Origin: Cymodocea nodosa
Lineage: Eukaryota > Streptophyta > Magnoliopsida > Alismatales > Cymodoceaceae
Direction: 5' to 3'
Assembly (NCBI GenBank): GCA_036874045.1
Contig: CM072343.1
Coordinates: 8,080,001 to 8,144,000, forward strand
DNA: 64,000 nt
Within the stretch, counting starts at the first letter, position 1. Each line of letters starts with the position of its first letter. Under the pieces are notes generated by a model that was not told the origin of the DNA, searched no databases, and saw only the letters and a program-made list of their open reading frames with translations. This document shows, piece by piece, positions 21,702 to 58,399 of the stretch. The position numbers were made by a program, and so were the translations under genes.

Positions 21702-24691
21702 TATTAAGAATGAAAAAGTGCATAATATTAATAGTTAAATGATGGTTAATTACATAATATTTAGCTTATTATATGAGAATTAAGCCATTATGTTATAATT
21801 ACACTGTTATATGCTTTAATGAAAGAATCTGCATAATTTCAGAAAATTAGCATTAATTAAGTACATTTCTGAATTGTCAGTAACTTATAGGCTTTGAAAT
21901 TCTTAAGTATCCAAATTTTCTGTTATTTCGGAGAGTTACATTTTATGTACTGGATAGTTATGTTTTAAACGTTAAAAGAATATTCAGGTACACAGTAACA
22001 ACTTGTTGAGTTAAAGGCTTAAAGGTGTAAAACGTACAAGTAACAACTCGTTGAGTTAGTAAGTAAAAACCGTAAGTTGTATACCTGAACTCGTTAAGTT
22101 AGAATTATGCACGTGTTGAATTTAAATGCTTTATTTGTTAGAATTAAAACTGATCGTTCAATCAACTTTCTATGGCACGATTCAGAAACACTCACTTCTA
22201 AATTCACTGAAACTAGAAGTGAAGAGTAAAAGGAAGAAATAACATAATGAAGACACAAGATTTATGTGGTTCAGCAACAGCCTACGTCCACAGAGAGTTG
22301 AGGGTTCTTTTATGAGCATCAACACAATCAATTGTAATGTTTTACAACATCATAAAGGTTTATATACTACCCAACTTAGGGTTTATAAACCTTTAATTAC
22401 ATACAAGCCATTACAGTAGAGAAATAAAGCTTCGGAGAAGGGACTCAATTTCGAAGCCTTATCTTCTTTTCTTTTCAAAATCTGCAACATTTCGGATAGT
22501 TACAGACTTAACTATCCAATGAAATTTTTCTTTCTTCATTTATTGTAACGGGCGTTACTGTAGCAAGCTAACTATCCGAAGAGATTCGGTATTTTGGATA
22601 GTTACAGACTTAACTGTTCGAAAACCCACTTACTTCTCTCTCTTTATCCTTTCGGAAGGTTCTACCGTTAACTCTCTGAAAACTACATGTCTTTCGGATA
22701 GCTACTGTCTTAACTATCTGAAAACTCACTAAAGTGTCTCTTTAGCCATTTCGGATGGTTTTGTCATTAACCTTCTGAAAACTTATGATTTTTGGATAGT
22801 TACTGCCTAACTATCCGAAGATCCACTTAAGTCACTACTTTTTGGATACTTGTCTTCTTAACAATCCGAACATCCACTTAAGTGTTTGACTTTCGGATAC
22901 TTAGCTTCATAACTTTCCGAACGTCCACTTAAGTGTCCTTTAAGTCATTTTAGATGGTTACAGCCAATAACCCTTCGAAATCTTCTGACTTTCGGATAGT
23001 TAACTCAAAGCCTTCGACTAAAACTTTATTTTTGGATACTTAGGTCTGTTAACCTACCGAAAATATAAATCTGCCAGATACTTACTGTTAACAAGCTTCC
23101 GATTGAACCTGGACTTCTTGTGGCATACTCCACACCTGTACTACTTGCCCTAACATTATTATGTCACGTGAGTTGCACATGTATAACTCGTTAAGTTAGC
23201 ATAACTATATGCATTGAGTTACTTGAATATACACTAAGGTAACGCATTGTGTTAGTAGCTTATAAGTTATTTCTTTATTGCACATGTTTTATAGTTAAAT
23301 CAACGAAGTAAGTTCATTGAGTTATTTGTAACTCCACGGACCATTTATTTTCTAATATGCCACTATAGCAGTTGCAGAAACAGGAAATTGGAAGGAAAAC
23401 CACAATTGCACGTATCACATAGGAATTCACTCGTGGAAGGAAGAAGAAATCACCATCGTTGATATGAATGAAGGAAATCCAACCAATCATCTAAGTAGAA
23501 GCAGTTATTACTAAAAGAAATATAAACGAAGAGGAGAAAGACGACGTTGTGTGTGTGTGTAAGTAGAGAACCGCACTAACTGTAGGAATCGTCGGTAGTT
23601 CCCTGAAGCACCACACCACCACCAAAACCACCAAAATCACCAACCATCGGAGGTCTATGAGGATACTTTTTGGATGTCAGGTTGATTCTGAGCCAAACAC
23701 GATGATTGACAACTACTGTGAGGAGTGATCACGTTGCGGGAAGGGAAACCATTTTCACCAAGCACCGACTCATATCTCAAGAGATCGTAAAGCTTCTAGC
23801 CTTGCTTTTGGGTTGATGCCAGTATGCTGAAGAGGAGATCATCTTACAATTCTTGATTTGTGATTCTATAGGGAGAGGAGGCAAGATTGTAAGTGATTAA
23901 GTTTTCAGTGGTGTAGTCGCGTCGCATGAAGTGACGGAAGTTTTTACTATCGATAAAGATTTTTACATTTCACCTTTCATTCATCTTCAAGAACATATCA
24001 AAACAAAAATACCAAAAATGACTAATTATCTATGTTTACATTTAGTATTAAAGTGTTGTATTGTTTGTTTTGTATCATGATTAATGTTATCATTCTCAGT
24101 ATTGTGAATGTTTGATGTTTGTTTGATTCAGAAAATAGTTTTATTATTTACTGAAATTGATTTGTTCTAGATATTTAAAGATTTTAAAGGTTACTATTTG
24201 AAATATCTGAATGTTAGTGTTGCTTAATGATAAATCTAATATTAACTAACATTAAAGAGCTTAATTGATGTTATTTACATTCTGTGGAACCGCCCAATGG
24301 TTGGTCGAATTCTTTTGTAAATAATAGTATTTAATTGAAAAAATAGGCTCGTGGAGTTAACTTAAGTCCACGAGGTTAGTCCGTTGAGTTAACCATCACT
24401 CCACGAACTAAGTCTTTTGTGTTAACTGTAACTCAATGGAGTGCTTAACTAAACACATATAAACTCCAATATAAAAATCAAAATAGTACATAATTCTTAC
24501 TCAATCTTTGTGGAATCGACCTGCACTTGCACACAAATACAATATACACTATGCACTTGCAGTTAAAAATACAAATTGGATTTAATATCTAATTTGTGTG
24601 AAAGGTTGTTTGTTTACTTCTAAAAGTAATTATTAATATAAGCATAAAAACAAATTGAACAAGTTTAAGAATTAACTTAACAACCCAAACA
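21702..24691 (+). repeat. P2 5' LTR (A1), carrying a nested solo LTR
   Basis: The LTR starts TATTAAGAATGAAAAAG and ends CAACCCAAACA. It is followed by the P2 primer site, so it is the 5' LTR. Net length without the 1020-bp insertion and its duplication is about 1965 bp. It has the U3 array of CTCGTTGAGTTAG, CTCGTTAAG and CACGTGAG motifs, an AAATATAAACGAAGAGG TATA-like region near 23518, and three U5 hairpins at 24345-24445. Confidence 0.85.
22136..23155 (+). repeat. Solo LTR E (probably Ty1/copia), TTATT duplication
   Basis: A 1020-bp unit begins TGTTAG and ends CTAACA, a perfect 6-bp inverted terminus. It is flanked by perfect TTATT repeats (22131-22135, 23156-23160). The GATTTATGTGGTTCAGC and CCTACGTCCACAG blocks recall the transcribed region of many plant copia LTRs; that assignment is inference. 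Its second half (22480-23060) is a dense array of TTTCGGATAGTTA and AACTATCCGAA motifs shared with other LTR families here. Confidence 0.75.
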
Positions 24692-24698
24692 AGTTTTC

Positions 24699-24716
24699 TG
24701 ATGTCGTTGTCAGGGA
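24699..24716 (+). other. Primer-binding site of P2
   Basis: TGATGTCGTTGTCAGGGA followed by TTGAGAAGC lies seven bases inside the 5' LTR. It is a degenerate form of TGGCGCCGTTGCCGGGGA, the Athila/Tat site. Differences from P3's site are mostly transitions. Confidence 0.7.
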
Positions 24717-24797
24717 TTGAGAAGCTAAGCAACTGGGAGTGCTATTTTGTTTTAATATCAGAAGGAGTGTTGTGTGTTTTATTTTCTAATTGAGAAT

Positions 24798-26038
24798 ATG
24801 ACATATGCTTATGCTCAAAGATTTCTGAAACCTGTAATTAGCATATGTGAATTCTGTAATTTGGAAGGTCACGACATCTCTAATTGTTTGAAACTGAGAC
24901 AATTGCAGATGCTTAGATCACATGAACAACAAATGAATTATATTCAATATAATAGAGCTGAGTATGAGAATCCTATAGTTTACCCAATGAATGGTCAGTT
25001 TAGAATGCGTAATATGTTGAGAGACAAGGAAGTTTGGGATAGGTATGACAAACTAGAGTGTAGTTTAGACCAAAACATGGACAAACTAGAACAATATATG
25101 TGTTAGCAACAAGAAGTCAACCAATTAAACTATAAGGAAGAATATTCAAAACTTAAAATTGATATCATCTACGAAACTGAAAAAACCATAATGAAAATCG
25201 ATCAAAAATTGAATGCAATGAGATTAGATGATCTAGAAAGAAAACTAAAAGTATTGGATGAATTTACAATAAAATTACAAGTTATGCAATAGGAAACTAC
25301 AAATGAAAACTCTAATGTTACAGAAGTGCATAATTTGCAAGATATACATACAAAAGAAAATACCAATGCAATAGAATTTAAAGAATGCAATTTAAAACTG
25401 AAAGTAGTTGAAGATCATAATCACGAAAATGAAATACAAGAACATCATGAAAGTAATGAAAATCTGGAAGATGTATGTATAACATTAAGATTTGGAATTG
25501 ATATACCACCAAGAATTCAAAGAGAAAGTAATAGGAAGGTGGAAAAGAACAAAATTCAAAATGATAATGAAAATGTAATATCTGAAAACTTAGAAATCAA
25601 TGAAGAAAAATTTGAATTTGAAAATGAGATTAAAAATGATCAACCAAATGAAATGAAAGACAAGGAATCTTGTAAATCACAATCATTAGCACCCTATCCT
25701 AAAAGATTACAACAAACATTTTCTGAGAAATAAGAAAAAATTATAGAAATTTTCAAAAAAGTATAAGTTAACATTATTTTGTTAGACTTATTGCAGAAAA
25801 TGCCACCTTGTGCTAAATTTCTTAAGGATTGGTGTACTAAGAAACGAGAGCGAAAAGTTTTAAGGAAAGTCTTTTTAGCTGAGCAAAGTAGTTCCCTATT
25901 TCTACCACAGATTCCTAAAAAGTTATCTGATCTTGGAATTCCTATTATATCATGCACCATAGGAAATACCATTCTAGAAAGAACCTTAATAGACCTAGGT
26001 GTAGGTATAAATGTTATGCCTAGTGATATATTTGCATC
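24798..26038 (+). pseudogene. P2 polyprotein N-terminal part: CCHC, linker, TLRS-type motif, protease start
   Basis: The conserved methionine at 24798 (M-T-Y-A-Y-A-Q) is chosen because it aligns with M0, M1 and P3. Methionines further upstream are not conserved. A zinc knuckle CEFCNLEGHDISNC follows near residue 17, then a charged, helical linker with EQQMNYIQYNRAEYENP. A KE-rich region follows (25326-25733) containing TLRFG, the position of the canonical TLRSG. Protease then begins with IPIISCTIGNTILERTLIDL and DLGVGINVMPS. The gene is cut at 26038 by a solo LTR. There is no capsid domain upstream of the knuckle. Several breaks. Confidence 0.8.
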
Positions 26039-28033
26039 TATTTAGAATGAAAAAGTGCATAATATTAACAGTTAAATGATGGTTAATTACATAATATTTA
26101 GCTTATCATATGAGAATTAAGCCATTATGTTATAATTGCACTATTATATGCTTTAATGAAGGAATCTGCATAATTTCAGGAAATTAGCATTAATTAAGTA
26201 CATTTCTGAATTATTGGTAAGTTGCAAGTTTTTAATTCCTAAGTATCTGAATTTTCTATTATTTCGGAGAGTTATATTGCATGTACCGGACAAGTTATGT
26301 TTATATGCTTATAGAATATTTTATTATTTCCTAGAGTACACGTGTTGTAACCTTAATGCATAACTTAAGTGAATGTTTGGTAAGTTATCTAGTAACTATC
26401 TGAAATGCATCTGAGCATCGGATAGTTAGGTTTGTAAGTATTCGAAATATCTGAACTCATTAAGTTAGAATTATGCACGTGTTGAAATTAAATGCTTTAG
26501 TATATCACGTGAGTTGCGCATGTATAACTCGTTAAGTTAGCATAACTATATGCGTTGAGTTACTTGAATATACACTAAGGTAACATGTTGTGTTAGTAGC
26601 TTATAAGTTATTTCTTTATTGCACATGTTTTATAATGAAATCAACGAAGTAAGTCCATTAAGTTGTCAGTAGCTCCATGGACCATTTATTTTCTAATATG
26701 CCACTATAGTAGTTGCAGAAATAGGAAATTCGAAGGAAAACCATGATTGCATGTATCACGTAGGAATTCACTCGTGGAATGAAGAAGAAATCACCATCGT
26801 TGATATGAATGAAGGAAATCCAACCGATCATCTAAGCAGAAGTAGTTACTATAGAAAGAAATATAAAAGAAGAGGAAAAAAGACAAAAAAAGTGTGTGTA
26901 CAGAGGTGGAGAATTGCATTAATTGTAGGAAGTGTTGAAAGTTCCTTGAAGCTCCACACCACTACAAAAATCACCAACCATCAGAGGTCTGTGAGGATAC
27001 TTTCCTGATGTCGTGTCGATTTCAAGCCAAACACAATGACTAACAACCACTGTGAAGAGTGATCACATTGCAGGAAGGGAAGCCATTTTCACCAAGCACC
27101 GACTCATATCTTAGGAGATCGTAAAGCTTCTAGCCTTATTTTCAGGTTGATGCAAGTATGTTGAAGAGGAGATCATCTTACAATTCTTGATTTGTGATTC
27201 TATAGGGAGAGGAGGCAAGATTGTAAATGATTAAGTTTTCAGTGGTGTAATCACGTCGCATGTAGTGATGGAAGTTTTTACTATCAATAGAGATTTTTAC
27301 ATTTCACCTTTCGTTCATCTTCAGGAACATATCAAAACAAAAATACCAAAAACAACCAATTATCTGTGTTTACATTTAGTATTAAAGTATTGTATTGTTT
27401 GTTTTGTATCGTGATTAATGCTATCATTGTTAGTATTGTGAATGCTTTACGTTTGTTTGATTCAGAAAATAGAAAATAGTTTTATTATTTACTGAAATTG
27501 ATTCGTTCTAGATACTTAAAGATTTTATTAGTTACTATTTGAAATATCTGAATGTTAGTATTGCTTAATGATAAATCTAATATTAACTAACATTAAAGAG
27601 CTTAATTGATATTATTTATAATCTGTGGAATTACCCAATAGATGGTCGAATTCCTTTGTAATTAACAGTATTTAATTGGAAAAATAGACTCGTGGAGTTA
27701 ACTTAAGTCCATGAGGTTAGTTCTTTGAGTTAACCATCACTCTATGAACTAAGTCCATTGTGTTAATTGTAACTCAACGGAGGTCTTAACTAAACACATA
27801 TAAACTCCAATATAAAAATCGAAATAGTACACAATTCTTTCTCAATCTCTATGGGATCGACCTATACTTGCACATAAATACAATATACACTATGCACTTG
27901 TAGTTAAAAATACAAATTAGAATTGATAACTAATTTATGTGAAATGTTGTTTGTTTACTTTTAAAAGTAATTATTGATGTAAGCATAAAAACAAGCTAAA
28001 TAAGTTCAAGATTTAACTTAACAACCCCAAACA
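26039..28033 (+). repeat. Solo family A LTR (A1) inside P2 protease
   Basis: A 1995-bp LTR, TATTTAGAATG...CCCCAAACA, interrupts the protease domain. The flanks are GCATC (26034-26038) and ACATC (28034-28038), a 5-bp duplication with one difference. The protease frame resumes directly after it. No internal element sequence remains, so this is a recombination product (solo LTR). Confidence 0.85.
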
Positions 28034-28038
28034 ACATC

Positions 28039-31000
28039 CTTAGGATTAGAAGGCTTAATCCCTACTAGGACTGTCATTCAATTAGCTGATAGAAGTATAA
28101 GATACCCTAGAGGAAAAATAGAGGATGTCCTAATTAAAATCAAAAACTTCATATATCCTATTAATATTGTGATTTTGGATTCCCAACAAATTAAGCCTCA
28201 AAATCATGATACATCTTTAATTTTGGGAAGACCATTCTTAGCAACATTAGGGGCTGTTATAAATTGTAAAACTGGAGTGATGAGATTAGCATATGGTAAT
28301 GAAGATACTCAATTAAACATTTTCAAACTAGAAAAGTTTGAGGAGTTAGAAATGCCCTTAAATACTATAGACGTTTTAGAAGATGAGGGAGATGTGCTAG
28401 ATGATGTGATTCAAGAAGAATTAAATAGGCAACTAGATTCTAAAACTACAGAAGTAAGTGAAAGTATAGATGTAGAAGGAGATCAAGAAGAGTTTAATAC
28501 TGAAGATGAGAATGTTCAATTAGGAGCTCTAGCTTCTGATGGTCAACATTTAGAATTGAAACCTTTACCTCCTGAATTAACCTATATATTTCTGGAAGAA
28601 AAATGAACATGTCCAATCATTATTGCTTCAGATTTAAAAGAGGATCAAATTTCTAAATTAAAAGATGTAGTAAAAACATATAAAGAAGCAATAGGATGAA
28701 CTATGACTAATATAAAAGGGTTAAGTGCAACTTTATGTTGTCACTATATATATTTAGAAGAAAATACTAAACCTGTTAGAATTCTTGAGAGAAGATTAAA
28801 TCCAAACCTTAAAGAAGTAGTCAAGAAGGAAATAGTAAAATGGTTAGATAATGACATAATTTATCCAATTTCTAATAGCTCATGGGTTAGTCCAATCCAT
28901 CTAGTTCCAAAGAAATCAGGATTAACAGTTATTAGGAATGAAAGTCAGGACTTGATACGTACTAGAATTCAATCAGGCTAGAGAGTGTGTATAGACTATA
29001 GAAAGCTGAATGCTGTTACTAGGAAAGATCATTTTCCCTTACTTTTTATAAATCAAATGTTAGAGAAATTAGCAGGGCAAGAATATTTTTGTTTCCTAGA
29101 CGATTATTTAGGATATAACCAAGTTCCAGTAACATTAGAGGATCAAGAGAAAACAACTTTCACCTGTCCTAATGGAACTTATACTTTTAAAAGAATGTCA
29201 TTCGGATTATGCAATGCACCAACTACCTTTCAAAGGTGTATGTAGGGCATATTCACTAGAATGACTGAAGACTTTTTAGAAATATTTATGGATGATTTTA
29301 CTATATATGGAACTTCATATGAAGTGTGTTTAAACAATTTAAACCAAGTATTAAAACACTGTGTGGAAAAAAATCTAGTTTTAAATTGGGAAAAATGTCA
29401 CTTCATGGTTAAACAAGGGTCTTGGGACATGTTGTTTCAAAGAAAGAGTTGAAAGTAGATAAAGCTAAAATAGAAGTAATTTCTAATCTACCAGAACCTA
29501 AATTAGTAAAAGATATTAGATCATTTCTAGGACATGCTAAATTTTATAAAAGATTTATTAAAATTTTTAGCAAAATAGCTAGACCTTTAACTAATCTATT
29601 AAAACATGTCCCATTTAACTTTGATAAAAATTGCAAAGAAGTATTTTTCAAGCTTAAGACTAGCTTAATTTTGACTCCTACAATACAAGCACCTGATTGG
29701 AGTCATCCATTTGAATTAATGTGCGATGCATTTGATTTTGCTGTAGGAGCAGTGTTGGGACAGAAGATAGAAAAATCTCCTAGAGTGATTCATTATGTAA
29801 GCAAAACTTTAAATGTTGATCAAGTTAATTATACAACTACTGAAAAAGAACTATTAGTTGTTGTGTTTGCCTTAGAAAAGTTTAGATCATATCTAATTGG
29901 AGCGAAAGTGATAGTATACATGGATCATTTAGCTTTAAAACACCTAATAGCAAAGAAAGAGACTAAACCTAGATTGATCTGGTGGATATTATTATTACAA
30001 GAATTTGATCTAGAAATTAAAGATAAAAAAGGTTGTGTGAATGTAGTAGCAGATCATTTATCAAGATTACAAATAGAAAAATCAAATATTGAAATTAAGG
30101 ATAATTTTCCTGATGAACAATTAATGACCATCAATATAATGCCTTGGTACGTAGACATAGTTAATTACTTAGTTACTAGTTTAACACCTAAAGATTGGAA
30201 TAGATAGGATAATAAATTGTTCTTCTCAAGAGTAAAATATTACTACTAGGAAGACCCATACTTATTTAAGAAATGTTCTGATCTGGTTTTAAGGAGGTGT
30301 ATCCTAGAAACTAAATATCAAAGCATATTATCTTTCTACCATGACCAAGCATGTGGAGGGCATTTTGGTTCAAGGAAAACTACTGCCAAAATTCTACAAT
30401 GTGAATTTTATTGGCCAACACTATTCAAAAATGCTTATAAATATTTTTTAAGTTGTATAAGATGTCAACAAATAGAAAGAATATCAAAGAGTAATATGAT
30501 GCCTCTAAACCCTATTGTTGAGGTTGAAATCTTTGATGTATGGGGAATAGATTTTATGGGACCATTTCCTATGTCTAATCAATTTAAATGTTGGGGGTGG
30601 ATTATGTATCTAAATGGATAGAAGCTATTCCTACAAAAACTAATGACAATAAAGTGTTTAATACATTTTATAAGAACTAATATAATTACTAGATTTGGAA
30701 TACCTAAAGCTATTATCAGTGATAGAGGAACTCATTTCTGTAATAGAAGTTTTGAAGTCTTAATGAAGAAATATGGAGTAAATCACAAAACTGCAACATC
30801 ATATCATCTGCAAACAAGTGGACAAGTAGAAAGTGCAAACAAACAAATTAAGTTAATCTCAGAAAAAGTAGTAAATCCTACTAGAAAATATTAGGCTAAT
30901 AGATTAATAGATGCACTTTGGGCTTATAGAACTACTTATAAGACAAGCTTAGGTATGTCACCTTTTAGGCTAGTATGTGGAAAAAGTTGTCATTTACTAG

Positions 31001-31430
31001 TTGAAATTGAACATAAAGCTTATTGGGCATTAAAATCTCTGTACACTAATTTAAATCAAGCTATTGAAAATAGAAAAAGGCAATTGACTGAATTAGAAGA
31101 ATTTAGGAATGAAGCTTATTCGAAAACTGTAAGAGAAAAAGGGAAAATGAAGTTCTAGCATGACAAGAAAATTATTCCAAAAACTTTTGAAATAGGACAA
31201 GAAGTATATCTTTATATGACTAGACTTCATAACTATCTAGGAAAACTAATATCTAGATAGGCAGGACCTTATATAATTTGAAATATTTATCCCTATGGAG
31301 CAATTGAAATTGAAAATCCTAAAAATTGAAATATATTTAAAGTAAATGGAAAAGTCTTAGACCTATTTTGAAAATACCAAAAAGTTCCTTTGGAATTATA
31401 GAAGAAGTAAGAGTAGAGGACCACTCGAGC
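28039..31430 (+). pseudogene. P2 protease end, reverse transcriptase, RNase H, integrase
   Basis: Protease C-terminus with LGRPFLATLGAVINCKTGVM and an acidic tail (28169-28606). RT with VRILERRLNPNLKEVVKKEI, WVSPIHLVPKKSG, CIDYRKLNAVTRKDHFPL (from 28985) and the FMDDFTIYG catalytic motif (near 29285). The RT connection and RNase H lie at 29422-30207 ([40 protein letters not shown]). Integrase has GIDFMGPFPMSNQF, IISDRGTHFCNRSFE and SGQVESANKQIK, and a C-terminal tail runs to about 31430. Typical Athila/Tat gypsy enzyme order. More than ten breaks; non-functional. Confidence 0.85.
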
Positions 31431-31493
31431 TTTACTTAGTAAGAAATTATCTAAGTCTATATATGTTAAAAAAAACCTTATTTAAAAATAGTC

Positions 31494-31800
31494 ACAGTTC
31501 AACCGAAAGAAATTATCAGTTTTATCGAAACATATATTATAAGAAAAAAAGTTGTTGCGGTTCAACCAAAAGGATCCATTGGTTTGATCGAAACATAAAA
31601 ATATAACAAATCTATATATTATATTCAGTAAAAATGTCGATTTTATCGAAGCATAGTTTCGGTTCAACCGATAGAAACAGAAAAAGAAAAAGTATTTAAT
31701 TTCGGTTCAATTGAGGAATATAACGGTTTGACCGAAATTCTAAAATATTGAAAAATAAAGAGTCGGTCAGATCGAAAATTCTTCAGTCTAGATTGAAGTA
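31494..31800 (+). repeat. Alternating GGTTCAACCGAAA / TTTCGGT array after integrase (P2)
   Basis: About eight copies of GGTTCAACCGA, or of its inverse GGTTTGACCGAAA or TTTATCGAAAC, lie in alternating orientation between the integrase end and the hairpin cluster. Copies are 15-45 bases apart. The arrangement is conserved in P1 and M1, so it predates those insertions. Confidence 0.7.
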
Positions 31801-31839
31801 AAAATTATTATAATAAGTATTTTATTAGTTATAACTTTA

Positions 31840-32005
31840 CGGGAAGTCAATTGAGTTACGCTTAACTCAATGAACTTACTTCGTTGAGTCTAGGATAAGT
31901 TAACAAACTTACTCTATTGAGATAACTGTAACTCAACAGAGTATTGTAGTTAAGTCCATGAACTTAGTCCATGGAGTTAACTGTAGCTCCACGGAGAAGT
32001 GAGTG
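31840..32005 (+). repeat. Hairpin cluster upstream of the P2 accessory ORF
   Basis: Inverted-repeat units such as TGAGTTACGCTTAACTCA and TGAGATAACTGTAACTCA, plus TCCATGGAGTTAACTG...CTCCACGGA, lie in tandem. They are followed by the leader-like GGTTTATTTATACTAAAAC (about 32050), which could serve as a TATA box. The same order, cluster then TATA-like run then ORF, is seen in M1. A spacer promoter is inference. Confidence 0.65.
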
Positions 32006-32249
32006 AGATAGCGAGAGTGCGTGGGAAAATGACCTGACTACCTGCTTAAAACTTAGGGTTTATTTATACTAAAACTTAGGATTTAGGGCCATTATCTGCA
32101 GAATCATTTAGATCTTAGAACAGTGAAGATCAGAGCGATTCCATTCCATTTTGTCACACCACGAAGTCAAGATGACACCAGAGTTCTAGGAAGAAGTTGA
32201 CACCACGAGATTTCTCAAAGAATCAGAAGAATAACATACGAGACAAAAG

Positions 32250-33361
32250 ATCAAGAACACAAATTGAGAGAAAGAGCTACAAAAGGTAGAATCTGACATC
32301 TTCTATTGGAGGAAAGTCTTAGTTGATTTAGATATTAAAATACCTCAGATTGTAGAAACAAGGATTAAGGTAGCAATAGAAGTTGTAGTAAATAGAGAAA
32401 GGAAAATCAGGCCAAACAACGAAGTTGCCCTAGAATTGATCTGACGTAAGTCTAGATTATGGTTCATATGACATATTGGTGGACATGCCAGGTGGGTAAT
32501 CTAAGAGCAACAAAGGAAAGTAGCTGAAGAACCTATAGCTACAAAGCTAGCTGCTGAAAAACTAGTAGTTGAGGAACAACAGCTAAGACCTTCAGTTCCA
32601 CCAACAGAACCATTACAACCAGTAACATTTGCTTGGCCGAGAACTAAAGAAGAAGATAAGGAGTTTGCTAGCTTGGTTAAAATAGCAAAAGACCAAGAAG
32701 ATGATGAAGAAATGGCTATGGTCAAGGCACATATCCTGTATGATGCTATAAAGAGGAAGCAGGCTGATGAAAAGTTGAAGGCCCAATACAAAATTAAAGT
32801 AGAGTAGCATCAAGAAGTAGCTAGATCAATGGCTACAAAAGAAACTAAAGTTGGTCATTCGAGACTAGTAATTATAGAAGTAGAATAGGAAGAGCCAATA
32901 CTTGTGGCTCGAAGGCCTGTAGAGCCTATTTTTATAGATTTAATCTCAAAGGAGGAAGAGGAAGACTAGGCACAACTATTTAGAAGAAAGAAAGGAAAAG
33001 AGATAATGCTTGAAGCTCTTGTAGAGATTAAACTTGAGCTTAAAATACCAAAAGGGCCTGCAAAGCCCATTTTTGTAGACCTGCTATCCGAATCTGAGGA
33101 GCAGGAGCAGGACAACAAATGCAAAGAGGAAAAGGAAAACAGGTTGAAATTAGTATGTAGCATGTACAAATAGAAGAAACTAAAGTAAGGGTAGAAGTTG
33201 ATTTGCCTGCGACTCCATCCTAATCTGCCACAGAATTAGAAAGAACAATGACAATGCAAATTAGTAGTTAGGAGGAAGAAGAAACTGAACAAGAAGCTAA
33301 ACAAGAGCATATGGAACAAGAAGGAAATATCTCAACAGATTCCATTGAAGAGGGAGAGACT
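32250..33361 (+). pseudogene. P2 accessory ORF, N-terminal part
   Basis: The translation is rich in charged residues: a KVLVDLDIKIPQIVETRIKV helix, then repeated E/K-rich and P-containing segments (PVEPIFIDLISKEEEED and PAKPIFVDLLSESEEQEQ are two versions of one internal repeat). It has no catalytic motif. It matches the M1 accessory ORF (50017-52131). The gene continues after the solo LTR at 33362-35493. A third ORF after integrase is known in several Athila/Tat families. Broken in several places. Confidence 0.65.
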
Positions 33362-35493
33362 TGTTTGGGTTTTCCCAGCACTACACTAGAAAACTTGGAT
33401 TTGTTACTTCTATTTTTACTTAGTTAATTTATCTTTATGCCTATTCTTTCTTTTAGAAGTAAACAAACAACCTTTAATACAATTTAAATATTAATTCCAA
33501 TTTGTACTTTAACTGCAAGTGCGCAGTGTCTATTGTATCAGTGTGCAAGTAAAGGTCGATCCCATAAGGAATTGTTGACGAATTTAAGAAATGTTTGATT
33601 GTGAACAATTCAAATTTATATTTCATAAGCACTCTGTTGAGTTACAGTTAACTCAACAGACTAAATTCGTTGAGTTATGGCTAACTCAACGAACTATCCT
33701 CGTGGACTTAAGTTAACTCCACGAGCCTGTCTCTTCTTTATAATACTGCTATTTACAGAGGAATTCGGCCAACCATTGGGCGATTCCACAGATTGTAAAT
33801 AACATCAATTAAGCTTTTTAATGCTAGTTAACATTGGATTTATCATTAAGCAATACTAACATTCAGATGATTCAAACAGTCACCATTAAAATCTTTAAGT
33901 TTTTTTGTACGAACCAATTTCAGTAAACTGTAAAATTAAAACTAACATAAAACAATCATAAAACTGATACAGATAACATTAATCACAATACAACACAAAC
34001 AATACAACACTCAAATACAACATACAAACAAAGATAAATTGTTTTTGGTATTTTTGTTTTGATGTGAACATGGAAATGGGCGAAAGGTGAAATGTAAAGT
34101 AATCTCACTTGATAGTAAATACTTCTGACACAACTTGCAACGCGATTACACCACTAAAAATTAAACCACTTACAATTCTGTCTCCTCTCCCTATAGAATC
34201 GCGAGTCCAGAATTGTAAGATGATCTCCTCTTCAGCATACTGGCATCAACCCGAAGCCAAGGCTAAAAGCTTTACGATCTCCTAAAATATGAGTCGGTGC
34301 TTGGTGAAAATGTCTTCCCTTCCTGCGACACGATCACTCCTCACAGTGGTTGTCAGGCACTATGTTTGGCTCAGAATCGACCCGACATCAGGCAAGTATC
34401 CTCACAGACCTCCGATGATTGGTGATTATGGTGGTGATAACGATGGTTGGTGTGATACTTCGGAGAATCACCGATACTGTCTGTAGAAAGCTCGGTGCTC
34501 CTCCTTTGTATACATTGGTCGTCCATCGATCACACTTTCTTCTTTTTTTCTTCTTTTCTTTTATATTTCTTCAGTAGTAACTGCTTCTACTTGAATGATC
34601 GGTTGGATTTCCTTCCTTCAAATCAACGGTGATGCTTCCTTCTCCATGTGCGATTGAATTCCTGCGTGATACGTGCAAACATGGTTTTTCCTTCCAACTG
34701 TCTGTTCCTGCAACCGCTACAGTGGAATTTTAGAAAATAACTATAAAATACATGCAATAAAGAAATAAGCCGCTAACCTAACGCATTACCTTAGTGTATA
34801 TTCATGTAACTCAACGCGTGCAGTTATACTAACTTAACGAGTTAAACATGTGCATCTCACGTGATATTCTAAAGCATTTAAATTCAACACGTGCATAAAA
34901 TACATGCAATAAAGAAATAAGCCGCTAACATAATGCGTTACCTTAGTGTATATTCATGTAACTCAACACGTACAGTTATGCTAACTTAACGAGTTATAAC
35001 TTAAGTAAATCTACCAGATCTCGACATGTGTCAACAGCAGTTTAAACATAAAATAACATTTCGGAGAGTTACAGGTATAACTATCCGATGCTTAGATACA
35101 TTTTTGGATAGTTATAGCTAACTCATCGAAAATTCACTTAAGACATTCATTCTAGTTTCAACACGTGTACATTTGGAAATAATAAAATATTCTCTCTAAA
35201 CATAACTGTTCGGCAATTTAAACATAACTATCCGATACATATTCGGTCTGTTAAACATAACTGTCTGAAATATCAGAAAATTTAGATACTTAAGAATTTC
35301 ATAGCCTGCAACTTATTGACAGTTCATAAATGTACTAAATTAACATTAATTCCCAAAATTAAGTAGATTCTTCAATTAAAGCATATAATAGTGCAATTAT
35401 AACATAATGGCTTAATTCTCATATGATAAGCTAAATATTATGCAATTAACCATCATTTAACCGTTAATAATATGCACTTTTTCATTCTAAACA
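33362..35493 (-). repeat. Solo family A LTR (A2) in the P2 accessory ORF
   Basis: A 2132-bp LTR in minus orientation, TGTTTGGGTTT...CATTCTAAACA, with a perfect AGACT duplication (33357-33361, 35494-35498). It belongs to subfamily A2: in LTR orientation it ends AAAACCCAAACA after a CTAGTGTAGTGCTGGG block. It carries both GTTGAGTTA and CGGATAGTTA motif sets (34790-35280). Confidence 0.9.
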
Positions 35494-35498
35494 AGACT

Positions 35499-36536
35499 CT
35501 TCAGCAAATTTTTGAGAGAATTCAAGAAAGAAGAGTGGAGAGTTCTACCGGCTCTCCACCATAGATAGAAGTAGAAACAAGAAGACAGGAATCTCCGAAT
35601 CATTTCCAACAAATTCAAGTTCAGCATATTGAAGAAGAAATTCAAGAACAAACCCCTCTAGAGCAACAAATTCAAATTCGTGACCTGGTTGAAGCAATAG
35701 TTCTAAATGAAGTACACTTTTGGAGTCAGGAAGTATACAATAAATATCAAGAGATTAGGAGTTATGATATTATATACAGTAGACCAGTAAACTGGGATGA
35801 TATGAATTAAATTAAAAAATTATTTGAGTTTCAAAGTCTACTACAATTTATTTCTCAGTAGAGAGGGCATGTAGTATGTGAAAATCTAATGTCTTGCTTT
35901 ATGCAAACTTGAGAGAGGAGGAAGGAAAGTTAATTTCCAACATGGAGTAAGCTGATGTATAGATAACACTTGAGCTTCTCCACAATATTTTTGGATTGCA
36001 AAATGAAGGAATAGAAATTCTAGAGAGTATAACTGCAATCGAGTGGACAGAATAGGAAATAAAGGACTATTTAGCTATCAATCCTAGTGTGCCATTATTA
36101 AACAAATTGAAGTACTTAAATGGTAAAGCACACATGGTAGCTAACATTTTGATTAAAAATGTCTACCAACGATAAGGCCATGATATTGAGCTTAGTTAGT
36201 TTGTTAAATGGGACACATATGTAGTAGTGAACAGAATTCAAATTAATTGGTACAAAGTTTTTATCTCCAAGTTGAGAGTAGCAAAGAAGAAACTATTCTA
36301 CGGAGATCTGATTCCACTACTGATGGTGGAAAATATAGACTTCACAAAATGGACATCTAAAAGGATAAGATCTAGAGCCATTTCAGTGAAGGAGTACAAA
36401 AATTATAATGCTACAGCTATTGAGGTATTTGGACCTTCTAGGGACATCATAGGAGATGTTGAATAGATAAATTAATTAGAGTAACAACTAGAAAAAGCTC
36501 AAGAAGGAAGTAGATGAACTTAGAAAAAAGGACTAA
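35499..36536 (+). pseudogene. P2 accessory ORF, C-terminal part with plant-transposon-protein-like domain
   Basis: Recognisable segments include SCFYANLREEEGKLISN-like sequence, LLNKLKYLNGKAHMVANIL, WYKVFISKLRVAKKKLFYGD and LIPLLMVENIDF (36227-36466). The pattern (FYANLRE...; ...AKKK..YGDLIPLL) resembles the 'putative plant transposon protein' domain found in ORFs of Ty3/gypsy plant elements. It ends in a short coiled coil (LEKAQEGSR...KKD). Function unknown. Several breaks. The domain call is from memory of the family and needs a profile search. Confidence 0.6.
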
Positions 36537-37584
36537 TGTATTGTTCATCTACTTATTTTTTAAAAAAATATATTTTTGACTATATGTAAATGTAACTATT
36601 TATATAAATGAATGTTTGAATTTTAGATGTTTTTGAATTCGTGTTTGAGAATGAATGATATAATTGAGAACTGTATTGAATATTATATAACTGTTTAAAG
36701 ATGTGCACGATTGTTTAAAAGTTTTACAATTTTATGAATGACATGATTAAATGCACGATGATTGGTTAAAGCTTGAATATATCTGCATGCTGAAAAGTAA
36801 AATGTAAATTCTACATAACAGGAAATGAACTGTAAGTTAAATATGCATATAATGTTTAGATTTGAAGGAGTTTAAATTAGAACACTGCATTAATGACATG
36901 TATTTAACTTTATTTAAGTTAACAAAATGCAAAGAAAAAAAAAATATAGAAGTTAATACGAGGAGTAAGTTTTAGAAATTTGCTGAGTGTTAACTCAACG
37001 AAGTAAGTTCATTGAGTTAACCTTAAACTCCACGAGGTCAATAATAACATAGAAGGTCACTCCATTGAGTTATCTGTAACTCAATGAGGTTAGTCTATGG
37101 AGTTAGCAAATAGACGATGAAGCTAGTCTATTGAGTTATTTGTAATTCAATGAGATTAGTTCATTGAGTTAGAAACAGTAACTGAAGCTAGTCTGTTGAG
37201 TTATCTATAACTCAATGAGGTTAGTTTGTGGATTAAGCTGAACAGTTATTCTTTTAGCCATGAACGAAACTTCATCAATTTAGCGATTACTGAAATTTGA
37301 AATTAGAAGAAGAACACGTATCCATAAAATTAGGAACCATACTGCACGTTACAAGACACGTTCTTGCAACGAGATTCATTTGCCTTATGAACGTGCATCA
37401 TAAATATAGAACAGAATGTCATTTACGAGTTACTAGCACTTAAGGAAAGAAAAGAAAATTCGTTGGGGAACTAGAAGGAGAAGCAACTGATTCAACTTCA
37501 TTCGTCAACAACTACTTACTGAAAACAAAGCATTAGTCTAGTATGTAATTAATCTTTTGCTATTTTACTTTATGTTAAGAGTTT
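36537..37584 (+). other. P2 spacer between accessory ORF and capsid, with hairpin cluster
   Basis: About 1 kb of AT-rich DNA without an ORF. At 36985-37235 lie at least five inverted-repeat units (CCATTGAGTTATCTGTAACT, TTGAGTTATCTATAACTCAA and similar). A CATAAATATAGAAC TATA-like run is at about 37399-37412, and a leader-like stretch leads to the capsid ATG at 37585. M1 has the same organisation at 47767-48757. The layout suggests a separate transcription unit for capsid and F-box; this is inference. Confidence 0.55.
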
Positions 37585-38933
37585 ATGAGCACATGGATTC
37601 GTTCTCCTAGCACTAAACGATTAGTAAGAACACCTACATAGGATTATACAACATAGAAGAGTACTGAAATATTTTCTGAATTGGACTTTAATGAAATCCT
37701 TAGGGGTGTAGCTAACCTTTCTTTAAAAGAGAACGAAGATATGGCTGCTCCAGTAGAAAAACCATTAGGGGAAATTCTGTATCTTGAACTAGTTGATGAG
37801 CCTTCATGTATTCGATTGCCAAACTTTGAGGGAGATAGGTTTGAATTGAAATCTAATTATATTAGTTAATTACCACACTTTTATGGATTAGAAAGAGAAG
37901 ATTCCTATTATTTCCTTAGAAAATTTAACGAAGTTTGTCAAATGATGAAAATGCAGAACATGAGTATTGATGCTTTTAAACTTAGATATATCCCTTTTGC
38001 TTTAAAAGACACAACTAAGAGATGGTTATATAATCTGTCACCTGATTCAATTTCTGCATGGACTGAAATTTGCTCTATTTTTTTAGAAAAATATTATCCA
38101 ACACGTCAAACGATTAAAAAGAAAAAGGAAATACTAATGTGTAGCCAAAAACAGAGAGAATCATTTTGGAAATATTTTGAAAGATTTAAAGATTTACTAG
38201 TTCAATGTTCACATCATGCAATGAGTAAAGCACAATTAATAGGTATAATTTATGAAGGCATAGATATTTCAACTAAATCTTTATTAGAATCTATATGTCA
38301 GAATGAATTTTTAAAACTGTGTAGTGAAGAAGCATGGGCATACTTAAAAAACTTTGCAAAAAGAATTCCATAGTGGGAAAACTTGGCTGAAGCTATTACA
38401 GATAAAAGAATATTGCCAAGGGGAATGATTGAAATAGATTCAAGTACTATGCTTGAAGTTAAATTAATTGAGTTAACAAAGAAAATAGAAGAGTTATCAT
38501 TAAATCAAAAACTAGCAGAAAAGAATGCAAATATTAATGACTTAGAATTATTTATGCTAGAAACCAGAAAGATAACTTTGGAAATTCTTATAACCCTAAT
38601 TGGAGAAATCACTCGAACCTATCTTGGAGAAATAACAACTTCTAGGGAGGAGAAAATATAAATGATAAAAATATAAGTTATGAAGTATTAATTGAACAAG
38701 GATCTAGAATAGAGAAGTTAGAAAAGATAATTTAGCAATTAAATAATCGTCTAGATCTTGTATTTGGAAATGTTGCCATTTAGAATCAAAATATAAATAG
38801 AAATATACCCCCTAGATAGAAGGAATCAATAGAAGTTAGACCTACTAGAGGATTGCCAATGCAAGTAGTGCCTAACCTTGTTAACAGAATTGTTAACGAA
38901 ATTGATACCTCCTTTGGGAGGGAAGCTAAATGA
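37585..38933 (+). pseudogene. gag: P2 capsid (Retrotrans_gag) gene, located 3' of pol
   Basis: The start is ATG 37585 (M-S-T-W), conserved in M1. Capsid signatures run from about residue 30: LPNFEGDRFELKSNYIS, a FREF..V-type block, DAFKLRYIPFALKDTTKRWL, LSPDSISAWTE, FLEKYYP and ESFWKYFERFKDLLVQCSHH. These match PF03732-type gag of Athila/Tat elements. In such elements this domain is followed by a CCHC knuckle and protease. Here a YNPNWRNH-type motif appears near 38600 without a knuckle, and the gene ends before an F-box gene. M1 has the same arrangement. A few breaks. Confidence 0.8.
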
Positions 38934-39157
38934 AGTATTATAACTAAAACAATTATGTATAATATAGTAATTAGAAAAATATAAAAAGAAAAGAAAAAAT
39001 ATGTAAGTTTAATTATAGTTAGTAATATTGTAGAGTTATTACTTAACTCAACGAGCTTAGTCCGTTGAGTTATGACCTAACTCCACGAGGGTATGTAAGT
39101 AGCTATGTTAATTTTATCTCTGCTAAATTTTGTTTATGTTATATAGAATCACAACAG
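38934..39157 (+). promoter_or_regulatory. P2 capsid/F-box spacer: hairpin and candidate 56-nt intron
   Basis: The inverted repeat TAACTCAACGAGCTTAGTCC...GTTGAGTTATGACC (39050-39082) precedes a GTATGTAAGT...TTATATAG segment of 56 nt (39091-39146) just before the F-box ATG. M1 has the same hairpin and an equal-length segment with GTAAGT/CAG ends. An open frame also runs through the segment in P2, so splicing may be optional or absent. Confidence 0.45.
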
Positions 39158-40117
39158 ATGGAATTGATGAAATTACCACTAGATGCACTGAGGGAAGTAT
39201 TGAGTAACCTATCTACTAAAGATCTATGTAGATTGTGTTGTGTGTTAAAAGAAATTAAAGAATGTGTTAGAGGAAAATATTTTCATGGACTACAAGCTGC
39301 AAAAATGACTAAGATTAGAGATGGATTTTTATGGAAGTCATTTAATCGTAGTTCAATCAGCTATGAATATCTGAATATGGAAGAAACTCTTGGAATTCCA
39401 CCCAATACATTAGAAGGAATAGATCATATTATGGGTATAAATGAAGGATTAATTATTTACAGAACCAAACCAAGGTATACAATTCTGTTACCCGATATTT
39501 TGATTAGAAATCCTATCACTAGAGAAGAATGCAATATAGGAAGGCCTAATAGATTTGAAGTACCTACTAAAAATTATGGGTCAGCATTAACATTTTCTGA
39601 TAAAAATTTGACAATTCCTAAAAAATTGTATTACTGGAGACCAACTGGAAATTGGGGTGAAGATTTATGTTTAAGTGTGTATAATTTATGAATAGATCTT
39701 GGACTGAAAATACTATGATATATCTAGGACAGAAAGCATTAATTAACAATATTACAGATATATCTAGTCACACTTGATTAAAGCATACATGTCATACTTG
39801 ATTGATATATATATCTAGTCACAGATATATCAATTGCATTTAGATCTGATTTATACATAGTAAGCATAGACAGTTATGATGATGACTTTATAGAAATATT
39901 ACCTATACCTAGCGATATAGTTGAACCACCATCTATGGAACATGATAAAATTCAATTAGGAATGTGGTATAATGAATATGATGATCCTACTTTATGTCTG
40001 ATAAGAAGGCAGGATGAACTAATGAAATTTCAAATATGGATTATGAAAGACCTAAATGAATGGAAATGGGAAGAGGAATATATTGAAATATCTATAGAAA
40101 TAGAAACAACTACATAA
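39158..40117 (+). pseudogene. F-box protein gene captured by family A (P2 copy)
   Basis: The open stretch to 39691 begins with an F-box: MKLPLDALREVLSNLSTKDL then CRLCCVLKEIKECV, matching the LPxDLLxEILSRLPxKxLxRxxxVCKxW pattern. After the F-box come LWKSFNRSS, a NPITREECNIGRPNRFEVP segment like the 'NPxTRE' element of F-box-associated domains, and LYYWRPTGNWGEDLCL. A further stretch (39935-40117) holds GMWYNEYDDPTLCL. F-box proteins link targets to SKP1/CUL1 ubiquitin ligases. Overall size, about 320 codons, fits plant F-box/FBA proteins. The C-terminal half is broken. No transcript evidence. Confidence 0.7.
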
Positions 40118-40318
40118 CTTGGAATAGAAAAGGATCCCTTTCTGCGTTTTAATTCATTAATGGAAATACACTTATATTTAGTATTGATAACATACTACAA
40201 GTTTACAAGTTAAAAAAGAGAGCGGACTACATTAAAATAGAATTAATAGCAAGAAGAATTATGCCTAAAAAGTTTGCTTGGACTTACACATTTATTCCAT
40301 TTGTTACTACTTTTCAAT

Positions 40319-42517
40319 TGTTTGTGTTTTCCTAGCACTACACCAGAAAAACTTGGATTCGTTACTTCTATTTTTACTTAGTTAATCTATCTTTCTGCCT
40401 ATTATTTCTTTAGAAAGTAAACAAACAACCTTTAATACAATTTAGATATTAATTCCAATTTGTACTTTAACTACAAGTGCACAATGTCTATTGTATCTGT
40501 GTGCAAGTATAGGTCGATTCCATAGGGAATTGCTGAAGAACTTTAGAACTGTTCGTTTGTTAATAATCAAATTTATATATTCAATAAGCTCTCCATTGAA
40601 TTACAGTTAACTCAATGGACAAAGTTCGTTGAGTTATGGCTAACTCAACGGACTAACCTCGTGGACTTAAGTTAACTCCACGAGTCTGTCTTTTCTTTTT
40701 AGTACTACTATTTATAGAGGAATTTGGTCAACCATTGGGCGATTCCACAGATTGTAAATAACATCAATTAAGCTCTTTAATGTTAGTGAACATTGGATTT
40801 ATCATTAAGCATAGTAACATTCAGATAATTCAAATAGTAACCATTAAAATCTTTAAGTCTTTTGAACGAACTAATTTCAGTAAACTGTAAAACTAAAACA
40901 AACATAAAACAATCACAACACTGATAAAGATAACATTAATCATGATACAACACAAAAAATACAACACTCAAATTCAACATAAAAACACAGATAAATTGTT
41001 TTTTGGTATTTTTGTTTTAATATGAACATGGAAATGGGTGAAAGGTGAAATGTAAAGTAATCTCACTCGATAGTAAATACTTCTGTCACTACTTGCAACA
41101 CGATTATACCACTGAAAATTAAACCACTTACAATTCTGTCTCCTCTCCCTATAGAATCGCGAGTCCAGAATTGCAAGATGATCTCCTCTTCAGCATACAG
41201 GCATCAACTCGAAGCCAAGGCTAGAAGCTTTACGATCTCCTAAAATATGAGTCGGCGCTTGGTGAAAATGGCTTCCCTTCCCACGACGCGATCACTCCTC
41301 AGTGGTTGTCAGGCACTGTGTTTGGCTCGGAATGAACCCAATATCAAGAAAGTATTCTCACAGACCTCCGATGGTTGGTGATTGTGGTGGTGGTAACGAT
41401 GGTTGGTGTGATACTTTGGAGAATTGCCGATACTGCCTACAGAAAGCTCTGTACTCCTCCTCTGTATACACTGGCCGTCCATCGATCACACACCCTTCTT
41501 TTTTTCTTCTTTTCTTTTATATTTCTTTAGTAGTAACTGCTTCTACTTGAATGGTCGGTTGGATTTCCTTCATTCGTATCAATGGCGATGATTTCTTCTC
41601 GCTACGCGATACGTGCAAACGTGGTTTTTCTCTTCCAACTATCTGTTCCTACAACTGCTACAGTGACATATTAGAAAATACATAGTCTATGGAGTTATAA
41701 ATAACTCAACAGACTTTGTTTGTTGATTTAACTATAAAACACGTGCATAAATTTAACTATCCGATGCTCAGGTGCATTTTGGATACTTATAAACTTAACT
41801 ATCCGATGCTCAGATGCATTTCGGATAGTTACAAATAACTCATCGATATATAACTTAAGTAAATCTACCAGATCTCGACACATGTTAGCAGCAGTTTAAT
41901 AATAAAAGAAACATTTCGGAGAGTTACAGAGCTAACTATCCGATGCTTAGATGCATTTTAGATAGTTAGAGATAACTCACCGAAAATCCACTTAAGTCAC
42001 TTTCCCAGAACATGACACGTGTCCTCAGCTATTTTATAAATAAAAAGAGATTTCGAAGAGTTACACATATAATTGTTCGATGCCTAGCTGCAATTTCAGA
42101 TAGTTATAGATAACTCACCGAAAGTTCACTTAAGTCATGCATTATGGTTTCGACACGTGTACTTTAGGAAATAATAAAATATTCTTTCAAAACATAACTG
42201 TTCATCAATTTAAACATAACTACCTGACATGTTCGGTCTGTTAAACATAACTATCCGAAATATGTTTGGTATGTTAAACATAACTGTCCGAAATATCAAA
42301 AAATTTGGATACTTAAGAATTTCACAGCCTGCAACTTACCGACAGTTCAGAAATGTACTAAATTAACATTAATTCCTCAAAATTAAGCAGATTCTTCAAT
42401 TAAAACATATAACAGTGCAATTATAACATAATGGCTTAATTCTCATATGATAAGCTAAATATTATGCAATTAACCATCATTTAACCGTTAATAATATGCA
42501 CTTTTTCATTCTAAACA
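40319..42517 (-). repeat. Solo family A LTR (A2), perfect TCAAT duplication
   Basis: A 2199-bp LTR in minus orientation, TGTTTGTGTTTTCC...CATTCTAAACA. It is flanked by TCAAT (40314-40318, 42518-42522) in the P2 3' non-coding region. It has the A2-specific CGGATAGTTA/AACTATCCGA arrays at 41755-42300 and the GACACGTGT G-box at 42014 and 42139. Confidence 0.9.
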
Positions 42518-42522
42518 TCAAT

Positions 42523-43710
42523 CATGTTCTTAAATTGTGATTTTGTACTTTTAATGTTGTGTGTATTCTGCATTTATGTTTAGGAAATAAAGAAAAAAAA
42601 AAACAAAATATCAATCCAGTTTGTTGGTATCTATTTTAGGAAACCAACTAGCTTGCTTGTGAGCCACAAAAGGCATAGGAGCCTGGGTTCCACACAAGAC
42701 ACTAATTTAACTATTTATGTTTTGTTATTTTGTTATATATTTTACTTTTATCTATGAATGAAAAAAATTTTAGAATCAAAAATCAGAAGATATTGAAGGA
42801 GATACAAAAGAACAAGGTATGTAATTGATTACTTATCCTGAATTTACATTCAAACTTAGTTTGTGGAGTTATTAATTAACTCAACAAATTAAGTTCATTG
42901 AGTTAGGTGCTAAGTCAATGAAACAACATTCATGCCTGCTACATTTACTGTATTTACTGTAAAGTTTTTTACATTGAGGACAATATAAAATGTAGGTATG
43001 GGGATGAGGTAATTAGATTAAAAGCCAAGTAATTTTGTTAATTAGAGGAATTAGAATGGTGCTGCAAAATTTTGTGGAAACTGAAATTGAAATTTTTATT
43101 TATGAATTTGCTGTAACTAACTGAAATTTCTTGTAACTATCTGATAATTGAAACTGTAAAAAACACAACACTGTAACTACTTGAATGTTATTTTATATAA
43201 GATGCTACAAAATTTTACTATTATACAAATTTGATATAGTATCTTATGTTTTTGCTAAATTTTATGAGTTTAACAGTTTCACGATTTTAAAAGAAATCAG
43301 AATGCTTAACTGAAACTCAATAAATGATTTGAAATCTTGAAAGAGCTGAAATGTTGATTTTTGGATTAAATGAAATACATATGATCAATGATACATTTGA
43401 TTTGATTGATTAAACTTGTAGAATGATTTATGTGTAAATCTTATTAAACTACAAAAAAAGTATGAGCTTATTGATATGGATTCATGTTTTCAGTGAATTA
43501 TAGAGCAGAATTATATGAGATTTGTGTTTTATTGCATCTGTATTAATGAAATACATATATATACTGTGTTGAAAAGAAAAAGAAAAAAAAGAGAAAAAAT
43601 TTGAGAGTTTATTGACTTGTTTGATCACAAGCCTTTTGTATTTGAGCAGATAGGTATGTAAGGATTGTTGAACTGAAAAAAGACTCTTTAAATCTGACAA
43701 CCTAAGATCC
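42523..43710 (+). other. P2 3' non-coding region
   Basis: No coding signal. The stretch matches M1 (18259-18500 and 12484-11500, minus). It contains the hairpin AACTCAACAAATTAAGTTCA...GAGTTAG (42865-42908), a TTTACATTGAGGACAATA block and a GTAGGTATGGGGATGAGG run (42995-43012), equivalent to the conserved G-rich block of Athila/Tat 3' regions. It stops at about 43710, about 570 bp short of where M1 has its polypurine tract. Confidence 0.6.
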
Positions 43711-57593: not shown

Positions 57594-58319
57594 TTAAACA
57601 TTTTCATCTTCACTATTAAACTCTTCTTGATCTTCTACATCTATGCTTTCACTTACTTCTAAAGTTTCAGAATCTAGTTGCCTATTTAATTCTTCTTGAA
57701 TCACATCATCTAGCATATCTCCTTCATCCTCTAAAAAGTCTATAGTATGTAAGGACATTTCTAACTCCTCAAACTTTTCTAGTTTGAAAATGTTTAATTG
57801 AGTATCCTCATTACCATATGCTAACTTCATCACTCCAATTTTACAATTTATAACAGCCCCTAATGTTGCTAAGAATGGTCTTCCCAAAATTAAAGATGTA
57901 TCATGATTTTGATGCTTAATTTGTTGGGAATCCAAAATCACAATATTAATGGGATATATGAAGTTATTGATTTTAATTAGGACATCTTCTATTTTTCTTC
58001 TAGGGTATCTTATACTTCTATCAGCTAATTGAATGACAGTCCTAGTAGGGATTAAGCTTTCTAATCCTAAGTATGCAAATATATCACTAGGCTTAACATT
58101 TATACCTACACCTAGGTCTATTAAGGTTCTTTCTAGAATGGTATTTCCTATGGTGCATGATATAACAGGGATTCCAAGATTAGATAACTTTTTCAAAATT
58201 TGTTGCAGAAATAGGGAACTACTTTGCTTAGTTAAAAAGACTTTCCTTAAAACTTTTCGCTCTCTTTTCTTAGTACACCAATCCTTAAGAAATTTAGCAC
58301 AAGGTGGCATTTTTTGCAA
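57594..58319 (-). pseudogene. M1 protease region
   Basis: A single open stretch contains KDWCTKKRERKVLRKVFL, IPVISCTIGNTILERTLIDL, the active-site region DLGVGINVKPSDIF, VIQLADRSIRYPR, SLILGRPFLATLGAVINC and an acidic tail (LEDEGDMLDDVIQEELNRQL). This is the Athila/Tat aspartic protease arrangement, in which DLGA/V replaces the more usual DTG/DSG. It matches P1 and P2. Confidence 0.8.
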
Positions 58320-58399
58320 TAAGTCTAACCAAGAAATGTTAACTTGTACTTTTTCAAAAATTTCTCTAATTTCTTCTTATTTTTTAGGAAATCTTTATT

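Follow-up and report, generated by a model that had tools for sequence, protein, structure and literature searches.

In the textbook layout of long terminal repeat (LTR) retrotransposons gag precedes pol, and this order underlies the usual account of how capsid comes to exceed the enzymes. Diaspora, an Athila element of soybean, has a single 1892-codon open reading frame (ORF) with gag first and, like Calypso, uses a tRNA-Asp primer (PMC1142308). Here we describe retrotransposons of Cymodocea nodosa with gag after pol, represented by the copies P2 and M1 in a 64,000-nucleotide stretch of DNA (C15 8080001-8144000, hereafter the window) and sought across the genome (374.6 megabases in 28 contigs). 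Pol followed by gag was the regular order in the best-scoring copies of several families, and in a young family both frames are open. Judged by primer site and motifs, these are several related Athila-like Ty3/gypsy families. As in Diaspora, a tRNA-Asp primer binding site lies a few nucleotides (nt) past the LTR and the LTRs are long, and Diaspora and Athila also share with them the CX2CX4HX4C zinc knuckle, an LDLGAS-type protease motif, the gypsy order inside pol and, in some members, a long leader (PMC1142308); unlike in Diaspora, pol leads and gag follows it as an ORF of its own. We consider it highly probable that the window holds decayed copies of one of these gag-after-pol families, in which gag would be expressed apart from pol, and likely that the families form a long-lived, recently active plant group in which the gag-before-pol order has been reversed and the ratio of the products is set through a separate gag RNA.

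Other described systems share single traits with these families. Some plant elements carry, 3' of pol and ahead of the 3' LTR, a sense ORF that needs its own expression, but these ORFs resemble env or have no known function and supplement an ordinary gag-pol (PMC7264820), whereas here the downstream ORF is gag. Gmr1 is likewise a Ty3/gypsy element with stably altered domain order, although there the integrase stands ahead of the reverse transcriptase (RT) inside pol (PMC8220671), while here gag stands behind pol. In Ogre two ORFs also lie apart, and partial splicing controls the proteins made, but gag-protease keeps its place at the front (PMC6317226). The reference survey of plant elements by Neumann et al. 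removed every element with unexpected domain order as likely mispredicted (PMC6317226), so the present group may have been overlooked in other plants. No plant element with gag after pol was recognised in the titles, abstract openings and passages given by literature searches that covered few subscription journals. Reversed families with open young frames mean that a gag-first order is not essential, that control of the gag:pol ratio becomes testable in a new setting, and that domain-order filters in annotation may discard real elements.

Gag downstream of pol in P2 and M1

The positions of protease, RT, integrase and capsid were obtained by searching the window with protein pieces of better-preserved copies (Table 1). 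In P2 the primer site, a knuckle shortly after the ATG (CEFCNLEGHDISNC, type CX2CX4HX4C), a TLRS-like motif, protease, RT, RNase H, integrase and capsid follow one another on the plus strand, with an accessory region ahead of the capsid. Pfam recognises RNase H (PF17917, 1.9e-31) and the zinc domain of the integrase (PF17921, 2.8e-12) and, 3' of pol, the capsid (PF03732, 4.2e-18) with an F-box beyond it (3.6e-07). The initial annotation had given this order for P2 and, on the opposite strand, for M1, whose protease, RT, integrase and capsid we located in the same succession on the minus strand. It had also let M0 and P3 begin at the knuckle; M0, like M1, does open with a knuckle shortly past the primer site, but of P3 (from about 61775 to the edge of the window) only the LTR and the first part of the leader are present. 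The LTRs, the 5-bp target duplications and the succession protease, RT, RNase H, integrase are those of Ty3/gypsy elements; the expected gag before pol is lacking, and the capsid lies 3' of the integrase.

Self-comparison of the window, together with annotation using separate window segments, resolved it into a nest of decayed long-LTR retrotransposons. M1 spans about 59750 to 8800 on the minus strand, and within it sits P2, a single LTR retrotransposon on the plus strand, flanked by GCAAC and GCAGC (one mismatch, read by eye), whereas P2's own copy of that stretch is uninterrupted; the two are copies of one family, one nested in the other. P2 extends beyond the interval 24692-43710 first proposed and runs, LTR to LTR, over 21702-46573. 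Three solo LTRs lie inside P2. Two have exact 5-bp duplications, the one at 26039-28033 has a duplication with one mismatch (by eye), and M1 aligns through all three sites without an LTR, as does L027 through the third (40319-42517). The inner LTRs are later solo insertions. An LTR between integrase and capsid, which had been named as a sign of two separate elements, is indeed present in P2, but as one of these later insertions, with its AGACT duplication and an empty site in M1.

Gene order and gag border across the genome

Of the thousands of candidates in each genome search only the best were scored, and all counts are therefore samples of the best-matching copies. We mapped 137 capsid, 138 integrase, 125 RT and 76 protease-region matches by position, and paired each domain with the nearest listed capsid on the same strand within 12 kilobases (kb). 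In L001, L002, L005, L007 and L008, among the best PF03732 matches, the integrase ends about 0.5 kb 5' of the capsid on the same strand. A listed integrase lay upstream of 75 of the 137 capsids and downstream of one (at 2068 nt), with none within 12 kb of the other 61; the gap from integrase to capsid was 402-651 nt in 72 of the 75, with modes near 422, 455 and 482, and 2.3-2.6 kb in three. With a first pool of 258 capsid places, the nearest capsid was downstream of 66 RTs, 78 integrases and 39 protease regions and upstream of 0, 2 and 0, and 59, 58 and 37 had none; this pool gave 18 combinations forming full protease-RT-integrase-capsid chains. When 64 young-family places (of 144 listed) were added, for 322 in all, the capsid was downstream of 72 RTs (72/75 paired), 79 integrases (79/82 paired) and 40 protease regions, upstream of 3, 3 and 1 (the last at 7.3 kb), and lacking for 50, 56 and 35. 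None of the 138 integrases had an opposite-strand capsid within 3 kb. The earlier claim of a family with its capsid 3' of pol is thus borne out by the mapping of integrase, RT and protease against capsid, as one of several such families in the genome.

Family A, to which P2 belongs, keeps this arrangement from copy to copy. The window's leader, about 100 nt long, lies directly 5' of pol in 27 of 30 fetched pol loci (L039-L068; 40 listed), the exceptions being L039, which is P2 with its solo LTR, and L052 and L053, whose upstream sequence was unmatched. No capsid was found in the 1.5 kb upstream of pol in any of these 30 loci, 16 of which reach the LTR end. The accessory region stands directly 5' of gag in all 30 fetched gag loci (L009-L038; 40 listed; L009 is P2), and the F-box region 3' of gag runs in the same direction in 29 and is inverted in L034. 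A further copy, L070, carries leader, pol, accessory region and gag along one stretch.

The L002 family shows where gag was cut. L071 and L002 are stretches of one locus: L071, a few kb upstream, has an exact 18-nt match to the tRNA-Asp primer site typical of Athila (decayed forms occur in family A), a leader of about 1.1 kb without capsid, and pol starting with a second knuckle (CTKCMLFDHENDEC), and after the integrase the downstream frames in L002 hold the capsid, a knuckle (CEGCGLDNHSIDQC), YYNPNWRNHPNFSW and the linker LPSQPVPNPR. No capsid was found 5' of pol in L071, nor in the 1.2 kb covered by L073. In four plant proteins from the database that are taken by their motifs as canonical Athila (P0040, P0060, P0063, P0076; other plants), a single chain carries the knuckle or a remnant of it, then WRNH or WKNH, TLRS and protease. 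All motifs of that layout (gag first, WRNH, linker, TLRSG, LDLGAS-type protease) are present here, though not in one chain: WRNH and linker end the downstream gag and TLRS stands at the pol start. With P0063 as query, all 76 genome matches begin at residue 170 or later, beyond its WRNH at 86, and with the Apostasia gag P0005, 90 of 102 matches stop before its TLRS-like motif at 381. On the strength of the L002 gag frames and these match limits, gag as read from the sequences lies nearly whole 3' of pol, with its border just before TLRS. Protease-region matches to other plants had 45-55% identity over about half of the query.

A gag knuckle was seen in none of 30 family A loci and none of the five in the L001/L003-L006 group, and in two of three of the L002 family. 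The initial annotation had placed the split inside gag, an impression that family A, where no gag knuckle was seen, does give; this is only partly right, the gag of the L002 family keeping its own knuckle, WRNH and linker. A strict pattern recovered the pol knuckle in 7 of the 30 decayed pol loci of family A, and it was read directly in P2, M0, M1, L071, L073 and L074.

Substitution patterns indicate that the downstream capsid is under purifying selection in the three copies compared (L001, L004, L005). Nonsynonymous differences per site (pN) were 0.05-0.08 among them vs 0.56-0.76 for synonymous ones (pS), the corresponding rate ratio (dN/dS) was 0.05 for the sole non-saturated pair, and codon positions 1+2 were 88-91% identical against 60-75% at third positions.

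A young family retains both frames intact. Eight of the 125 listed RT matches, all about 69% identical to the query, stand in stop-free pol frames of 1490-1491 codons. From the L071/L002 spacing we computed where knuckle and capsid should lie around one of them (C14:15528863) and fetched two short stretches; L074 contained the knuckle CSYCHVKGHDESIC with LILRSGK, and L075 carried, where it was predicted, an open frame for the capsid that includes an ATG (MVANNNERR). At least 53 listed capsid places of this family match with at least 92% identity across 258 or more of the 266 residues, and 11 of these stand in 454-codon frames with a stop-free match; six RT-capsid pairs are spaced 2179 or 2182 nt.

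Expression of gag and competing explanations

These elements run from the LTR through a primer site of tRNA-Asp type, a leader, pol, gag and a 3' region to the second LTR; the leader measures about 100 nt in family A and about 1.1 kb in the L002 family, pol starts at its own ATG and comprises zinc knuckle, TLRS, protease, RT, RNase H and integrase, and gag is a separate downstream frame. Since gag is set apart from pol by hundreds of bases (kilobases in family A) and has an ATG of its own, frameshifting or readthrough at a gag-pol border cannot set their ratio. That the capsid would need separate expression, as had been suggested, follows from this anatomy. Pol would be made from the full-length RNA and gag from another one, and RNA levels, instead of frameshift or stop readthrough, would set the excess of capsid over enzymes. 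Retroviral env is made from a spliced RNA, and by analogy with env and with the partial splicing of Ogre we tentatively prefer a spliced gag RNA, with limited confidence; an RNA started at a promoter inside the element comes next in our preference and is rather unlikely. The pol knuckle may take over RNA binding where gag lacks one. Recombination between tandem copies or template switching as the origin of the order is a guess.

Several observations weigh against this account. Partners were not listed for 61 of 137 capsids, 50 of 125 RTs and 56 of 138 integrases, and the nearest listed capsid lay upstream at 4.1, 4.6 and 8.6 kb for three RTs and at 2.1, 8.4 and 10.5 kb for three integrases. 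Of the P0005 matches, 12 of 102 extend to 381-395, that is to the TLRS-like motif or beyond. Family A gave a dN/dS of 0.34 for its one pair, and a test of shared versus private variants in that family was discarded, its wrong-frame controls giving equal or stronger signals (capsid frame+1, odds ratio (OR) 3.08, p 0.00036; F-box frame+1, OR 2.32, p 0.00067). In a splice scan, acceptors were better than shuffles in only two of eight spacers and donors in none of 11 regions.

The heavy nesting of the window and the LTR between integrase and capsid in P2 would suit a pol-bearing and a separate gag-bearing element that nesting, tandem insertion or misassembly had brought together. That LTR, however, is solo with an exact duplication, M1 runs uninterrupted at the same place, L070 has leader, pol, accessory region and gag on one stretch, and no LTR was recognised in the eight spacers read; the gap of 402-651 nt in 72 of 75 linked cases is also too short for these LTRs, and this fixed spacing refutes the joining of two elements as a general account, which we regard as scarcely credible. 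Somewhat less remote, though still very improbable, is that the capsid 3' of pol represents an accessory or second gag, with a normal gag lying 5' of pol or supplied in trans. The genome does hold other gags (121 of 150 best PF03732 places fall outside the list of this gag family), and supply in trans is known for BARE-2 (cited in PMC11963269), but no capsid was found ahead of pol in L071, L073 (1.2 kb) or the 30 family A loci (16 of them reaching the LTR end), and the downstream capsid is under purifying selection in the copies compared and open in many young copies. The young pol and gag, at about 1490 + 454 codons, moreover come near the 1892 codons of the Diaspora gag-pol (PMC1142308).

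The order could also be real and gag be made on the full-length RNA, either through an internal ribosome entry site or through reinitiation, with which the splice scan is in keeping, donors being no better than shuffles anywhere tested and no good acceptor being found in the 120 nt 5' of the young-family capsid stretch. From what is generally known of plant translation, reinitiation after a pol of about 1490 codons is unlikely, and partial splicing is known in Ogre (PMC6317226); we hold expression from the full-length RNA to be improbable, and a separate gag RNA remains the preferred reading. Comparison of the spacers gave no clear signal of a cis-element: identity in the L001/L003-L006 group was 82-95%, mostly at or slightly above that of integrase third positions (65-94%); L004 carries other sequence upstream, and between families identity was about 46%.

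Features of the window and minor observations

Table 1. Positions of P2 and M1 features within the window.
Feature	Position	Strand	Basis or remark
P2 5' LTR	21702..24691	+	about 1 kb of unrelated sequence inside (~22136-23155)
Primer binding site, decayed tRNA-Asp type	24699..24716	+	typed by comparison with L071 (exact motif match) and Diaspora
Pol start: ATG 24798 and N-terminal CCHC knuckle 24846-24887	24798..24887	+	sequence reading
Pol N-terminal ORF with TLRS-like motif TLRF (25482-25493)	25293..25733	+	ORF translation
Protease, two pieces (25647-26042, 28040-28228) with solo LTR between	25647..28228	+	protein-piece search
Solo LTR, type A, later insertion	26039..28033	+	duplication GCATC/ACATC
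Reverse transcriptase	28655..29601	+	protein-piece search
RNase H-domain ORF	29413..30207	+	Pfam
Integrase core and C-terminal part	30541..31368	+	protein-piece search
Solo LTR, type B, later insertion between integrase and capsid	33362..35493	-	duplication AGACT
Accessory region between integrase and gag	35494..37162	+	open frame in L014, no Pfam match
Gag region 3' of pol; capsid match 37816-38511, PF03732 in ORF 37870-38373	37163..38781	+	Pfam, protein-piece search
F-box ORF 3' of gag	39047..39691	+	Pfam
Solo LTR, type B, later insertion	40319..42517	-	duplication TCAAT
P2 3' region	42523..43922	+	self-comparison, segment annotation
P2 3' LTR, a composite of B-type and the final 500 nt of A-type	43923..46573	+	alignment
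M1 capsid, 3' of M1 pol	46840..47535	-	protein-piece search
M1 integrase	54615..55444	-	protein-piece search
M1 reverse transcriptase	56509..57399	-	protein-piece search
M1 protease	57882..58466	-	protein-piece search
M1 3' LTR	8800..10915	-	segment annotation

The 3' LTR of P2 is composite, with a full B-type LTR (43923-46073) and, after it, the terminal ~500 nt of an A-type one (46074-46571), and its 5' LTR is A-type. P1 (12485-18258, plus strand), which sits in the 3' region of M1, has LTR pieces, protease, RT and integrase and no capsid match, and is a deleted copy.

The accessory frame between integrase and gag in family A (in L014 at 67-483 and in L018 at 2-388) has no Pfam match. The F-box ORF beyond gag (L013:3156-4199) matches PF00646 at 5e-10 in L013 and is found, complete or truncated, in the majority of the 30 fetched gag loci; a protein search found no homologue at E <= 0.001 among 1091 candidates, and the ORF is possibly a captured host gene.

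In L005, integrase and spacer are close to those of L001, L003 and L006, but the capsid shows greater divergence, beginning near position 1320 of the oriented locus, as if by recombination between subfamilies. L072 was rejected as the leader of the L005 element, other sequence being found there with a best primer-site match of 8 mismatches. L055 and L056, about 200 kb apart on C1, share an identical deletion that joins pol directly to the capsid, which would reflect either a spreading deletion derivative or a segmental duplication.

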